Of a stretch of DNA of 64,000 bases, positions 41,754 to 46,700 are shown piece after piece. Within the stretch, counting starts at the first letter, position 1. The number at the start of each line of letters is the position of its first letter. Under the pieces are notes generated by a model. It was given only the letters and a program-made list of their open reading frames with translations, was not told the origin of the DNA and searched no databases. Source of the stretch: Aureivirga marina (GTDB taxonomy: Bacteria > Bacteroidota > Bacteroidia > Flavobacteriales > Flavobacteriaceae); contig NZ_JADPIB010000004.1 of assembly GCF_015767265.1 (NCBI RefSeq), forward strand, positions 186,001 to 250,000, read 5' to 3'. Position numbers and translations under genes: made by a program.

Positions 41754-41784
41754 AAAACCCTTCTATTTTCTAGAAGGGTTTTTT
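41754..41784. terminator. Bidirectional terminator
   Basis: AAAACCCTTCTA / TAGAAGGGTTTT with a five-base loop and T tract, between convergent DUF423 and DUF559 genes. Confidence 0.9.
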
Positions 41785-41791
41785 GTTAGAA

Positions 41792-42145
41792 CTACTTGTT
41801 TTTAACTGATTCGATTATTTTACTTAATACTTGTTCGGTGTTTTCGAATATTAAGTTATTTTCTAATCGTATAGTTCTGATTCCAATTTGTTTTAATAAC
41901 TTTTCTTTAATTGTTTCTTTCTCTTTAGAAGTTACATTTTGTTGTGTTCCTAAAATTTCAATAGCAATTTGTTTTTCTGGACAATAAAAATCAAGAATTA
42001 CATTAAAAATGCTGTGTTTTCGTCTGAATTTGTAATCTGCTAATTGTTTTTTTTGTAATAATTTCCAAAGAAAATTTTCCGCAGAAGTGCAATTTTGTAA
42101 TAGCTCTTTTAATTCCGCTTTTCTTAAAAGGGGTTTCTTTTTCAT
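41792..42145 (-). CDS. DUF559 protein with altered nuclease motif
   Basis: 117 residues in the DUF559 family, which has a PD-(D/E)xK-like endonuclease fold related to Vsr. Conserved blocks: LLQNCTSAENFLWKLL, YKFRRKHSIFNVILDFYCPEKQIAIEI, GIRTIRLEN. Where active members read E-L/I-D-G-x-x-H, this one reads IEILGTQQN, so both the Asp and the His are changed. The first Asp (ILDFYC) and Glu remain. It is likely to be catalytically weak or inactive, unlike the intact copy at 43460. Single gene on the minus strand. Confidence 0.78.
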   Translation of the reverse strand: MKKKPLLRKAELKELLQNCTSAENFLWKLLQKKQLADYKFRRKHSIFNVILDFYCPEKQIAIEILGTQQNVTSKEKETIKEKLLKQIGIRTIRLENNLIFENTEQVLSKIIESVKNK

Positions 42146-42889: not shown

Positions 42890-42967
42890 TTTTTAAATTT
42901 TATTATTATTTAAACAATTTTAGATAAGTTATTTATCTCTTTTTCCAGTGTTTTTCAATTTTTATAG

Positions 42968-43261
42968 TCTGCATTTACATAAAACAGGTCTACATTTGCA
43001 TAAAACAGGTCTGCATTTGCATAAAACAAGTCTGCATTTGTATAAAACAGGTCTGCATTTACATAAAACAGGTCTACATTTGCATAAAACAGGTCTGCAT
43101 TTGCATAAAACAAGTCTGCATTTGTATAAAACAGGTCTGCATTTGCATAAAATAGGTCTACATTTGCATAAAACAGGTCTGCATTTGCATAAAACAAGTC
43201 TGCATTTGTATAAAACAAGTCTGCATTTGTATAAAACAGGTCTGCATTTGCATAAAATAGT
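42968..43261. repeat. Array of fourteen 21-bp tandem repeats
   Basis: Units of the form TCTGCATTTGCATAAAACAGG run without gaps for 14 copies. Four variants recur in fixed order (unit A with TTTACA, B with TCTACA, C ending AAG, D with TTTGTA) as two full 84-bp higher-order copies plus a variant third. Each unit contains the near-palindrome TGCATTTGCA. Two of six frames stay open because 21 is a multiple of three (the repeated LHLHKTG and DLFYANA heptapeptides), but both need non-ATG starts, so I do not call it coding. Confidence 0.92.
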
Positions 43262-43418: not shown

Positions 43419-43451
43419 CCCTCCTTATGTAAGGAGGGGTAAGGGGTGGTT
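43419..43451. repeat. Left inverted hairpin repeat flanking the DUF559 gene
   Basis: CCCTCCTT-ATGT-AAGGAGGGG followed by TAAGGGGTGGTT. This is nearly the reverse complement of the copy at 43858-43891. Confidence 0.85.
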
Positions 43452-43459
43452 AGAATTTA

Positions 43460-43828
43460 TTATAATTCTTCTAATGTATTTAATATTATTTCTAAAACTT
43501 CAGTTGTATATTCAAAAACTAACTTATTTTCAAATCTGACTGTTGTTATTCCTATTTCTTTTAAAATATTATCTCTTTCCTTATCTTGAATTAAGCCATC
43601 AAGTGTATAATGAAAATTACCATCTAATTCTATGACAAGTTTTTTCAATGGACAATAAAAATCAACTATATAATTGAAAATACTATGTTGTCTTCGGAAT
43701 TTATATCCATTTAATTGTCTTCCTTTTAAATGTTTCCATAGATGAGCTTCAGCAGGTGTAGCATTATTTCTTAGCTTTTTTCGGTGTTCAATTAATTCTT
43801 TTTTATTATGAATAATTAACTTTTTCAT
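43460..43828 (-). CDS. DUF559 endonuclease-like protein, intact motif
   Basis: 122 residues. The family blocks are all present: KLRNNATPAEAHLWKHLKG, LNGYKFRRQHSIFNYIVDFYCP, KLVIELDGNFH (the E-x-D-G-x-x-H nuclease motif is complete) and GITTVRFEN. DUF559 proteins have a Vsr/PD-(D/E)xK-like fold and probably cut DNA. The gene starts close to one hairpin repeat and ends close to the other, so it is precisely bracketed (see findings). Its predicted catalytic set contrasts with the altered copy at 41792. Confidence 0.85.
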   Translation of the reverse strand: MKKLIIHNKKELIEHRKKLRNNATPAEAHLWKHLKGRQLNGYKFRRQHSIFNYIVDFYCPLKKLVIELDGNFHYTLDGLIQDKERDNILKEIGITTVRFENKLVFEYTTEVLEIILNTLEEL

Positions 43829-43857
43829 TTGATTTTTGTTTAAATATAATATTTTTT

Positions 43858-43891
43858 AACCACCCCCAACCCCTCCTTTTTTTAGGAGGGG
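43858..43891. repeat. Right inverted hairpin repeat flanking the DUF559 gene
   Basis: AACCACCCCCAACCCCTCCT, a short T loop and AGGAGGGG. It mirrors the left copy at 43419-43451: 18 of 20 bases of the first part are complementary to the left copy. Confidence 0.85.
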
Positions 43892-43948: not shown

Positions 43949-45469
43949 TTGAAAGATAATCCAACCCCACTAAACCAAATTTTCTTCGGACCTCCAGGAA
44001 CAGGAAAAACATACAAAACTATTACGGAGGCGATACGAATTATTGAACCATCTTTTTTTAAAGAAGAAAAGTTTGAAAATGATAGAGAATCTTTGAAGCA
44101 ACGATTTGATCATTATGTTTCAGAAGGAAATATTGTATTTACAACTTTTCATCAAAGTATGGATTATACTGATTTTATGGAAGGAATAAAACCTTCTGTA
44201 GATGATAATGGAAATATTATTTATGAAGTAAAAGATGGGATATTTAAATCGATTTGTAACCAAGCAAAAGAAATTAAATCTTCTGAGAAATTAAACCATT
44301 GGGAACAACGAAAGTTTTATAAAATGTCTTTAGGAGGAAAACCAAATCCGGAGATTCATGAATGGTGTTTGGAGAATAATTATATCGCACTAGGTTATGG
44401 TGGGAAAAATGATTTGTCATCGCTACTTGGTTTGGATGCTCGAAAGACAAAAGAGAAGTTTTATGAATTAAATCAAGATTTAGAAGACGAATCAAATTAT
44501 CATTGGAAAGCAACGGAACTTTTTTTAGGAATGGAAGAAGGTGATGTTGTTGTGGTTTCTAAAGGAAATCATATTATTGATGCGATTGGAATTGTTGATG
44601 GAGATTATGAATATAAAACGGATGAAGAGATTCGCTATTTTCATTATCGAAAAGTAAAGTGGATTGCAAAAGATTTAGATGTTAGTCCAGAAAGGTTTTT
44701 ACACAAAAAAATTTCACAGCAAACAATTTATAAACTAAAAAAAGAGAGCATCAAGTTTAAAGCTTTTCAGCAGTTGACAGATTCGGGAGAGAATGTAACT
44801 GAAAAGTATGTTTTAATAATTGATGAAATTAATCGTGGAAATGTTTCTGAGATTTTTGGTGAATTAATCACATTAATAGAAGATGATAAACGTCTTGGGA
44901 ATTCGGAAGCTTTAAAGATTACATTGCCTTATAGTAAAAAGGTTTTCGGTGTTCCTAACAATCTTCATATTATTGGAACAATGAACACAGCAGATAGAAG
45001 TGTGGAAGCGTTGGATTCTGCTTTGCGAAGACGTTTTAGTTTTAAAGAAATTGCTCCAAAATCATCACTTTTAAAAAAGAAAATAATTGTGGGAATTTCT
45101 TTAGAAGAACTTTTAGAAATAATTAATAATAGAATTGAAGTTTTATTAGATAGTGATCATAAAATTGGACATAGTTATTTCTTTTCTGTAGAGAATTTAG
45201 AAGATTTAAAAGCTGTTTTTCAGAATAAAATAATTCCTTTATTACAAGAATATTTCTTTGGAGATTATGCCAAAATTGGATTAGTTTTAGGAGAGAATTT
45301 TGTTTCTAAAAAAGAAAATAATCATTCTGTTTTTGCCAACTTTGAAGACGATGAACATCATTATTCTGATAAAAAAATATATCAGATTGCTAAAGTGGAT
45401 TCTATGAATGTTGCTGAGTTTCAAAATGCTGTTGAATCTTTATTAAATAAAGTTTTAGTTGAAAACTAA
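43949..45469 (+). CDS. mcrB: McrB-like AAA+ restriction subunit with inserted domain
   Basis: 506 residues; TTG start at 43949 because no ATG lies between the preceding in-frame stop and Walker A. Walker A GPPGTGKT at 14-21, Walker B VLIIDEINRGN (Asp292, Glu293) and the McrB signature MNTADRS (345-351) with ALRRRFSF identify the McrB GTPase lineage. About 160 residues (roughly 115-275: FYKMSLGGKPN, NNYIALGYGG, EGDVVVVSKGNHIIDAIGIV) are inserted between Walker A and B and look like a PUA/EVE-type nucleic-acid-base reader. There is no N-terminal DNA-binding domain, so the insert is the likely target recogniser. The gene overlaps mcrC by 11 bases. Confidence 0.88.
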   Translation: MKDNPTPLNQIFFGPPGTGKTYKTITEAIRIIEPSFFKEEKFENDRESLKQRFDHYVSEGNIVFTTFHQSMDYTDFMEGIKPSVDDNGNIIYEVKDGIFKSICNQAKEIKSSEKLNHWEQRKFYKMSLGGKPNPEIHEWCLENNYIALGYGGKNDLSSLLGLDARKTKEKFYELNQDLEDESNYHWKATELFLGMEEGDVVVVSKGNHIIDAIGIVDGDYEYKTDEEIRYFHYRKVKWIAKDLDVSPERFLHKKISQQTIYKLKKESIKFKAFQQLTDSGENVTEKYVLIIDEINRGNVSEIFGELITLIEDDKRLGNSEALKITLPYSKKVFGVPNNLHIIGTMNTADRSVEALDSALRRRFSFKEIAPKSSLLKKKIIVGISLEELLEIINNRIEVLLDSDHKIGHSYFFSVENLEDLKAVFQNKIIPLLQEYFFGDYAKIGLVLGENFVSKKENNHSVFANFEDDEHHYSDKKIYQIAKVDSMNVAEFQNAVESLLNKVLVEN

Positions 45470-46700
45470 TAAGATAATCACAGTTTATGAACATGAAAAA
45501 TTGTTTGTTCATAAAGGAAAGAAGCAGTTAGATCCAAATCTGTATAAAGAATTAGTGCAAATTTATGGAGATGAATCTGTTCCATATTTTTCATTGTTGC
45601 ATAATGGTGTAAAATTCAATTCTTATGTTGGTGTTTTGCAAATTGGAAATACAACGATTGAAATTTTACCAAAAATGGATCAAATTCATGGAGAAGATTT
45701 TTGGCGAAATAAACTAATTGAAATGTTACAATATGTTGGTGTTTTTAATATTAAAGCACCGACAAATGCTTCGTTAAAATTGAAAAAGAATTCGATTTTA
45801 GAATTATACATTTCTTATTTTATTCAAGAAATTGAATATTTGTTACATTGTGGTTTAGTGAAAAAATATCGTAAGGAAGTTAAAAATTCCAAAGCTTTAA
45901 AAGGGAAATTATTACTTTCTAAACAACTTCAGAAAAACTCTATTCACAAGGAAAAGTTTTTAGTTTCTCATGCTGTATATGATACGAAACATGAAATTCA
46001 TGCTATTTTGTATCAAGCATTATTTTTAATTCAAAATTTGAATTTAGAAAGTGTACACGGAAAAGTAAAGCGAATTTTATTAGAGTTTCCAGAATTTCCT
46101 AAAACGAAAATTACGGAAAAAACATTTGCGAATATTATTTTAGATAGAAAAACAAAAGTGTATGAAAATGTTCTTCAGATTGCAAAAATGTTGTTGTTGA
46201 ATTTACATCCAGATATTCGAAATGGTGGAAATGATGTTTTAGCAATCATGTTTGATATGAATATGCTTTGGGAGAAATTTATTTTCAAAGTTTTAAAGAA
46301 TCATCTTTCTAAAACACATGAAGTGATTGCACAAGATTCAAAAAAGTTTTGGAAATCGGAAAAGAGAACAACTTCTACAATGCAACCAGATATTTTAATA
46401 AAAGGAAAAAGTGGTGAACTTTCGATTGTCTTGGATACAAAATGGAAAAATACAATGAATTCGCCTTTGTCTGTACATGATTTACGACAAATGTTTGTAT
46501 ATAAGCATTTTTATAAAGCAGAAAAAGTTGCATTAATTTTTCCACATATTGTAAGTGAAATTGATAAAGGACATTTTTTTCATCCAAAAGAAGAAATTGG
46601 AAAAGAATCCTGTGATTTAATCTATATAAACTTACAGGAAAAAGGAAATATCTCGATGCTTGAAAATCATGAAAAGTTGCTTCATTATATTAAAAATTAG
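45459..46700 (+). CDS. mcrC: McrC-like nuclease subunit
   Basis: 413 residues from a TTG that overlaps the 3' end of mcrB, giving coupled translation. The N-terminal half (VGVLQIGNTTIEILPKMD, LIEMLQYVGVFNI) is the McrC part that binds the McrB ring. The C-terminal PD-(D/E)xK nuclease has Asp311 in MQPDIL and VLDTKWK with Asp326 and Lys328. In the family McrC stimulates GTP hydrolysis and cuts DNA after translocation by McrB. Together these form a type IV-like restriction system against modified DNA. No methyltransferase is seen near it, as expected for that type. Confidence 0.9.
   Translation: MKTNKIITVYEHEKLFVHKGKKQLDPNLYKELVQIYGDESVPYFSLLHNGVKFNSYVGVLQIGNTTIEILPKMDQIHGEDFWRNKLIEMLQYVGVFNIKAPTNASLKLKKNSILELYISYFIQEIEYLLHCGLVKKYRKEVKNSKALKGKLLLSKQLQKNSIHKEKFLVSHAVYDTKHEIHAILYQALFLIQNLNLESVHGKVKRILLEFPEFPKTKITEKTFANIILDRKTKVYENVLQIAKMLLLNLHPDIRNGGNDVLAIMFDMNMLWEKFIFKVLKNHLSKTHEVIAQDSKKFWKSEKRTTSTMQPDILIKGKSGELSIVLDTKWKNTMNSPLSVHDLRQMFVYKHFYKAEKVALIFPHIVSEIDKGHFFHPKEEIGKESCDLIYINLQEKGNISMLENHEKLLHYIKN

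Follow-up and report, generated by a model that had tools for sequence, protein, structure and literature searches.

A DUF559 nuclease gene between inverted hairpin ends: comparative evidence for a likely small mobile unit

REP-like repeats are widespread, and to our knowledge they have no established mobiliser other than the RAYT tyrosine transposase. The unit described here, a gene for a DUF559 nuclease enclosed by two hairpin elements, shares with the REP/REPIN and RAYT (TnpA-REP) systems the layout of a small nuclease gene flanked by its own palindromic repeats, together with gene-free copies (23 of 31 cognate), inverted doublets (seen at the DUF559 locus G033:C5) and cognate lineages of enzyme and repeat. 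It differs from them in its enzyme, which has the Vsr/EDxHD fold and is not a HUH tyrosine transposase; in the feet of its hairpins, which rarely carry GTAG (4/249) or CGTC (10/249; overlapping samples); in the build of its ends, which combine a purine/pyrimidine stem with a second G-rich core; and in the occurrence of units in-frame within genes. Since the Y1 HUH transposase and the GTAG/CGTC tag are both unmet, the DUF559 unit works like a REP/RAYT system without being a member of that group.

Outside the DUF559 family, the closest folds are those of Vsr and of the EDxHD homing endonucleases such as I-Bth0305I; the latter have an extended DNA-binding region as part of their definition (PMC3943268), which the DUF559 protein lacks, and the DUF559 element differs further in having structured ends and gene-free copies and in not being bound to introns or to fixed alleles. 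Rickettsia palindromic elements are palindromic repeats that lie in-frame in protein genes that likely still work (PMC3733652); DUF559 units also lie in-frame in protein genes, but bring with them a nuclease gene fused in-frame. With MITEs and insertion sequences the unit shares terminal inverted repeats and the coexistence of autonomous and gene-free copies, yet it has no transposase gene, and no target-site duplication was seen. The protein itself belongs to PF04480, the family of YcjD and VsrA. YcjD is a DUF559 protein; the tie between YcjD and Vsr was made by profile in 2005 (PMC1189080). The Caulobacter DUF559 protein VsrA is a predicted repair nuclease with a proposed role in very-short-patch repair, and the SOS response after methylase loss in Caulobacter depends on it (PMC12907096). 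The sections of these two papers that bear on YcjD and VsrA make no link to flanking repeats, and the words nuclease, RAYT and DUF are absent from the main text of the RepRanger survey (PMC12306157); in the open-access literature searched (mostly abstracts, with subscription papers and bioRxiv largely outside the search), no paper was found that ties DUF559 to flanking hairpin repeats.

The window, meaning the whole 64 kb stretch of DNA that was analysed, contains the unit listed in Table 1, and the PF04480 match of its nuclease gene stands well clear of the curated cut-off (E = 1.1e-30; 106.1 bits vs. 20.6). The left hairpin reads CCCTCCTT-ATGT-AAGGAGGG at 43419-43438, followed by G, TAA and GGGGTGGTT (to 43451), with 20 nt between this hairpin and the stop codon of the gene; the right hairpin, read on the minus strand, is CCCCTCCT-AAAAAA-AGGAGGGG (43891-43870), followed by TT and GGGGGTGGTT (to 43858). 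Both elements have the same build, a pyrimidine 5' arm, a G-rich purine 3' arm, two to three bases and a second G-rich core, and in each the hairpin is on the outside and the second core is turned toward the gene. The sequence-only reading had described a DUF559 gene bracketed by mirrored hairpins with 18 of 20 bases matching in the outer part; the arrangement held, with the gene and both hairpins found as placed, and the match is corrected to 19 of 21 bases identical from AGGAGGGGT through GGGGTGGTTA, a segment that comprises hairpin arm and second G-rich core. An inverted-repeat search returned the pair as 57-nt arms, 77% complementary and spaced by 374 nt, and folding of both arms as single-stranded DNA gave z = -2.2 to -2.6 on both strands. 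Hairpins with a purine 3' arm (at least 7 bases, with GGG) number four in the entire window, and two of these are the ends of the unit.

Table 1. Positions of the DUF559 unit and of the second DUF559 gene, in window coordinates.
Feature	Position	Strand	Remarks
DUF559 (PF04480) nuclease gene, 122 aa, 369 bp	43460..43828	-	E27, D56, E67, D69, H73 and D82 intact
Left hairpin, 8-bp stem, loop ATGT, G-rich 3' arm GGAGGGG	43419..43439	+	outermost
Second G-rich core GGGGTGGTT of left element	43443..43451	+	side of the gene's 3' end
Right hairpin, 8-bp stem, loop AAAAAA	43870..43891	-	inverted copy of left hairpin, upstream of start codon
Second G-rich core GGGGGTGGTT of right element	43858..43867	-	side of the gene start
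Second DUF559 gene (PF04480, 1.1e-21)	41792..42145	-	1.3 kb from the first

The genome from which the window was taken (3.93 Mb in 26 contigs) has two DUF559 matches, and both lie within the window. Around the second gene a hairpin pair was looked for and is absent, and its protein has L, Q and E in place of the family residues D69, H73 and D82; from the lost residues and the missing hairpin pair, it is likely that this gene is a decayed relative. The window has a third hairpin with a purine arm (CCCTTCT...AGAAGGG, 41758-41778), which is accompanied by a T-run and located about 13 nt from the stop codon of the decayed gene; it looks like the terminator of the DUF423 gene. Just downstream of the unit, a tandem array at 42966-43260 consists of about 14 copies of a 21-bp, AAACAGGTCTGCATTTGCATA-like repeat, with open frames on both strands. 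On the other side, McrB-like and McrC genes (43949-46700) begin about 60 bp past the right hairpin, so that the unit immediately precedes a type IV restriction pair.

Hairpins of the same kind recur around DUF559 genes elsewhere. A PF04480 profile search of 397 Flavobacteriaceae genomes found matches in 188, and standalone DUF559 frames no longer than 200 aa were taken down to E 3.2e-32, giving a sample of 60 loci with flanking sequence of up to 4 kb per side; a hairpin was counted if its purine 3' arm had at least 7 bases including GGG. By this criterion, 51/60 loci had at least one hairpin within 250 nt of the gene (43 upstream, 36 downstream, 28 on both sides). The 55 upstream and 48 downstream hairpins within this distance correspond to densities of 3.68/kb and 3.20/kb, compared to 0.01-0.08/kb at more than 1 kb from the gene, a drop of 40-fold or more, and 0.006/kb in shuffled sequence of 20 of the 60 loci. 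Among the nine loci without a detected hairpin, five (L080, L087, L102, L116 and L125) encode proteins that start with M(W/F)(K/R)GA, a branch that is possibly unlinked to hairpins and no longer mobile; in three others (L073, L083 and L113) inspection by eye reveals a hairpin of GGAGG type that lacks the GGG demanded by the criterion, and the remaining one is L072.

The association extends beyond this family. Among 84,980 species genomes searched at the protein level, at least 566 relatives were found, of which the best 80 were kept and two long frames then dropped; hairpins were found within 250 nt in 33/38 loci from Flavobacteriaceae-named records and in 35/40 other loci, and at least 11 loci are shared between this sample and the 60-locus sample. 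According to their record titles, the 40 other loci include Pontibacter, Acinetobacter, Nitrospira, Nitrospinae, Chloroflexota, Desulfobacterales, Zixibacteria and candidate phyla; their hairpin densities are 4.26 and 3.20/kb near the gene vs. 0.02-0.36/kb beyond 1 kb, and even in the weakest distance bin of the protein-search sample hairpins are about 9-fold or more rarer beyond 1 kb. DUF559 relatives were also found in 37 plasmid records, of which 14 were taken; 10/14 have a hairpin, with 2.7/kb near and 0.37/kb far from the gene, and 11 of the 13 far hairpins belong to a single locus. The four plasmid misses are all cyanobacterial; at the cyanobacterial loci L295 and L297 the same layout is visible by eye, with mixed-base arms that escape the criterion. 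In phages, a DUF559 relative occurs in 2 of 50,697 records (one, L298, was examined and left out of the counts), and a protein scan of viral contigs found no relative. On a Sphingomonas plasmid, a DUF559 gene with inverted hairpin ends is situated between sufB and sufC (L365, 1977-2387).

An alternative in which the hairpins merely serve a short gene as ordinary intrinsic terminators or insulators is all but excluded. In its favor, a terminator scan of the window made 3 calls where 0.2 were expected, all of them inside the two hairpins of the unit, each of which was flagged, and the left hairpin follows the stop codon; a side role in termination is possible for the window hairpins. However, the hairpins are about as frequent upstream of the gene (43/60) as downstream (36/60), and terminators should also be found beyond 1 kb, where these hairpins are scarce. 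T-runs on either side accompany only 40 of 249 flank hairpins (two overlapping samples), and 210/249 flank hairpins have a second G-rich core at a distance of no more than 50 nt, vs. 145/592 random places. Finally, terminators do not enter leuS or metH along with a gene, and the dispersed copies count against this alternative too. The terminator-only reading was rejected on position, density and the rarity of T-runs.

Copies of the hairpin without the gene are also found. The genome of the window contains a single further copy (C21:376060), its hairpin intact and with two mismatches to the core pattern. In 199 genomes of the family, the pattern CCCTTN{0,8}AAGGGAN{0,1}GGTG, which covers only two core classes, was present in 32. 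DUF559 genes at E <= 0.001 occur in 29 of these 32 genomes vs. 60/167 others (Fisher 5e-9), and at E <= 1e-20 in 23/32 vs. 41/167 (5e-7); all ten genomes with at least three pattern matches have DUF559, eight of them at the strict limit. Three of the 32 repeat-bearing genomes are without a DUF559 match, and 60 of 89 DUF559 genomes are without the pattern. The window's own pattern occurs in 8/199 genomes, all eight with DUF559, and a reversed control matches none.

The gene-free copies tend to resemble the DUF559 flanks of the genome that carries them. Genome G094 has 22 pattern matches, and the six copies that were fetched are alike and match the downstream flank of the G094 DUF559 gene. The dispersed copies in G120 likewise match DUF559 flanks, namely those of one of the DUF559 genes present there. 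In a cognate test, 31 free copies from six genomes and the window's own were compared to DUF559 flanks of 133 genome labels, and 23 of the 31 found their best match in a DUF559 flank of their own genome. Five of the seven genomes agree (G094 6/6, G120 7/8, G033 5/6, G069 4/4, own genome 1/1); the exceptions are G096 (0/4) and G077 (0/2), for each of which one DUF559 flank was sampled. Two of the successes, the copy in the window's genome and one in G033, lead the next genome by less than 4 bits. In the sister genome G033, four contigs (L022, L023, L024 and L026) have, close to their start, a near-identical stretch of 60 nt followed by the hairpin, which suggests a longer repeated element that ends in the hairpin.

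The ends have a consistent build: a pyrimidine arm, a loop, a purine arm that forms the first G-rich core, a spacer and a second G-rich core; in the long forms the spacer between the cores is itself a hairpin. The sequence class of the core tracks the lineage of the nuclease. For nucleases at least 70% identical in different genomes, the upstream core is shared in 68/106 pairs and the downstream core in 61/97; for nucleases less than 50% identical, the corresponding numbers are 125/2619 and 144/1976. Vertical descent contributes to this agreement between core and nuclease. For copies inside one genome, nearly all of them less than 60% identical, cores agree in only 2/15 and 0/7 pairs, and this disagreement, based on few pairs, speaks against an effect of the host. 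The second stem was evaluated in distinct inserts, sorted by class, as at least five base pairs compared to one shuffle; it is present in 43/49, 44/53, 12/24 and 20/25 inserts of four classes (shuffled 9, 4, 0 and 2) and in 10/16 inserts of a sixth class (shuffled 1), and is weak in a fifth (7/25 vs. 3). Pairing in this stem is kept while the spacer sequence changes; therefore, it is likely that the folded strand is under selection.

The orientation of the ends varies. In units within leuS and metH the second cores point outward, opposite to the inward cores of the window unit, and at G033:C5 an inverted doublet on each side of the gene has its inner core inward and its outer core outward; as inferred from this locus, the inward form could be the inner half of such a doublet. 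A crude routine, applied where both sides were readable, found 9 inward, 3 outward and 3 same-way cases in the 40 loci from outside the Flavobacteriaceae-named records, and 1 inward, 4 outward and 6 same-way cases in the 38 Flavobacteriaceae-named loci.

The ends could also be viewed as REP-like repeats or MITEs that are moved by another enzyme, either a RAYT or IS200-type Y1 protein or an unknown transposase, with DUF559 as cargo or neighbor. Several observations are compatible with this scenario: some genomes have more pattern matches than DUF559 genes (up to the 22 of G094), the free copies of G096 and G077 are unlike their sampled DUF559 flanks, a Y1_Tnp match is present in 17 of 29 genomes searched, the cutting of REP sequences by Y1 enzymes is an established precedent (PMC8266576), and in Legionella repeated segments are reported to carry a transposase together with a DUF559 gene (PMC12308824). 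Yet Y1_Tnp is absent in the other 12 genomes searched, including that of the window and the repeat-bearing G120, G129, G176 and G168; none of the Y1 loci fetched (30 of 38 matches) shows such a hairpin; and GTAG stands at the foot of only 4/249 flank hairpins. That the core type follows the DUF559 lineage also counts against the cargo scenario, in which no such relationship would be required. Overall, this alternative appears unlikely; RAYT as the mobilizer was rejected on the grounds that Y1_Tnp is missing in several repeat-bearing genomes and that the Y1 loci are bare, a rejection that concerns Y1 enzymes only.

DUF559 units also reside inside other genes. Long-frame DUF559 loci numbered 17 (860-1176 codons), of which 14 were translated: nine are leucyl-tRNA synthetases and five are methionine synthases with the DUF559 unit in-frame. 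The host frames, which we take to be leuS, metH and hemD, were named from their motifs, and the leuS, metH and hemD-like frames that hold a unit have no stops. By reading, 12 of the 17 loci have at least one hairpin near the DUF559 segment; the five without comprise L037 plus four metH loci, and among these five at least L038 has arms that fall below the 7-bp threshold. These frames of about 1100 aa had been considered as "fused DUF559 proteins" that might serve as a negative control, which was rejected when they proved to be in-frame units; as a caveat, the sampling had no clean control set of DUF559 genes without ends. At the start of uroporphyrinogen-III synthase (hemD)-like frames, DUF559 units are found in L041, L055 and L058, and the hairpin is translated as a leader peptide.

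In leuS and metH, the site corresponding to the unit is empty in relatives. A leuS query matched in 118 of 120 genomes, and the match was split by more than 350 nt in 8, split by 54-120 nt in 5 and unsplit in 105. Between fixed anchors, empty alleles span 99 nt in six of nine measured cases and 111-126 nt in the others, and occupied alleles span 483-702 nt in the six measured of eight; one empty and two occupied loci were left out where both anchors were not shown. The occupied allele of G002 has no visible hairpin ends. The short leuS-loop inserts (G083, G080, G029, G045 and G005) were considered as gene-free copies of the DUF559 element and rejected; four are a different repeat type and one appears unrelated. 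In-frame insertions of this different repeat, GTCATTCCGAGCGAAGCGAAGGAATC-like or a relative, were seen in the leuS loop at L345, L347, L348, L349 and L341. Since the loop holds other palindromic repeats, it is a tolerant site; a few inherited insertions together with a tolerant loop may explain most cases of a leuS site common to many genera. The metH gene of G215 carries two units that are 77% identical including their flanks, with homology that begins at AGCCCCCC and ends at GGGGGGCT. DUF559 occupies a shared metH site in G215, G015 and G402 (the G402 insert was not read). No target-site duplication was seen at the two G215 metH copies, and the leuS sites are blurred by linker drift.

The enzyme is compact. 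An AlphaFold2 model of the window protein (pLDDT 88) consists of one domain with N-terminal helices; its nearest structure is the DUF559 protein 3hrl (Z 16.3; sequence match E = 3.5e-22), followed by the EDxHD homing endonuclease I-Bth0305I (Z 11.9), Vsr (Z 10.1) and TnsA (6.3). The catalytic domain of I-Bth0305I superimposes with an rmsd of 2.5 over 93 residues. Residues E27, D56, E67, D69, H73 and D82 are present in the window protein and invariant in 58/58 aligned proteins; E27, D56, H73 and D82 can tentatively be read as the EDxHD residues, in the absence of a residue-by-residue superposition. The model of the 122-aa protein has no extended DNA-binding region beside the catalytic domain, and PADLOC and NCBIfam returned only weak or sub-cut-off matches for the gene.

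This structural kinship raises the possibility that DUF559 is a true homing endonuclease that cuts empty leuS and metH alleles, with the hairpins as by-products or protective ends. The I-Bth0305I fold, closest after the DUF559 structure, and the same-site occupancy (leuS in 8/118 genomes; metH in the three genomes named above) support it. On the other hand, the 60 fetched units are free-standing and the annotated plasmid units have differing neighbors, dispersed gene-free copies are unlike allelic homing, the protein has no long DNA-binding region within its 122 aa, and the leuS loop is tolerant, holding other repeats too; the homing scenario is very unlikely. A further alternative is that DUF559 is a host repair or defense nuclease of the Vsr type with conserved regulatory hairpins, the window copy being part of an mcrBC defense cluster. 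The very-short-patch repair role proposed for VsrA of Caulobacter (PMC12907096) and the adjoining McrB and McrC genes are in its favor; however, the contexts of the units are unrelated (sufB/sufC, hydroxyphenylacetate genes, the interior of leuS and metH), and regulatory hairpins do not need dispersed gene-free copies. This scenario, too, is considered very improbable.

On the preferred interpretation, 43419-43891 is probably a small mobile element in its autonomous form, in which the gene for a single-domain nuclease of the Vsr/EDxHD type lies between inverted structured ends. Where the strand becomes single during replication, repair or in transcription bubbles, the end would fold; the DUF559 nuclease would recognize the hairpin and its two G-rich cores and nick or cut beside them; and repair or strand transfer would then copy the segment elsewhere, as a whole unit, a gene-free pair or a single end. 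For gene-free ends, the nuclease would be supplied in trans. The comparison demonstrates the association, the inverted ends, the insertion into genes, the gene-free copies, the co-inheritance of core and nuclease, and probable selection on the second stem; the same comparison lends good support to mobility, which is likely, with no movement observed. Direct action of DUF559 on its own ends is the likeliest step but remains undemonstrated, an inference without binding, cutting or transfer data.

The sequence-only reading had proposed that the gene and its inverted ends form a small mobile unit, which is supported by recurring ends, free copies and the leuS and metH units, and that DUF559 recognizes its own hairpins as RAYT recognizes REP elements, which is supported with binding and cutting inferred only. 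It had suggested looking for other DUF559 genes with the same ends, which were found (51/60, 33/38, 35/40 and 10/14 plasmid loci), and for hairpin copies without the gene, of which there is one in the window's genome and more in some relatives, mostly matching the DUF559 flanks of their own genome (23/31, with G096 and G077 as exceptions). The outcome that would have refuted it, hairpins that are merely ordinary terminators unrelated to DUF559 genes, fails given their rarity beyond 1 kb and the T-runs at only 40/249.

The unit is called a new kind because its enzyme class, its end architecture and its life in essential genes, taken together, match no system found in the literature searched. 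A bolder reading holds that DUF559 together with pyrimidine-purine-purine (Y-R-R) hairpin ends constitutes a class of bacterial mobile elements that spans many phyla (Bacteroidota, Pseudomonadota including Acinetobacter, Nitrospirota, Chloroflexota, Cyanobacteriota and candidate phyla), that uses a homing-endonuclease-type enzyme on structured DNA, and that gave rise to a large part of the G-rich palindromic repeats these genomes carry, as well as to peptide insertions in proteins such as leucyl-tRNA synthetase and methionine synthase; taken as a single claim, the balance of evidence tips only narrowly in its favor. A second and unrelated enzyme with repeats of its own would account for many orphan palindromic repeats; a large and little-characterized nuclease family would gain a function, and a compact nuclease of 122 aa may be able to read DNA structure. 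The whole units that lie in-frame in leuS and metH would illustrate how a mobile element can cope with residence inside essential enzymes.
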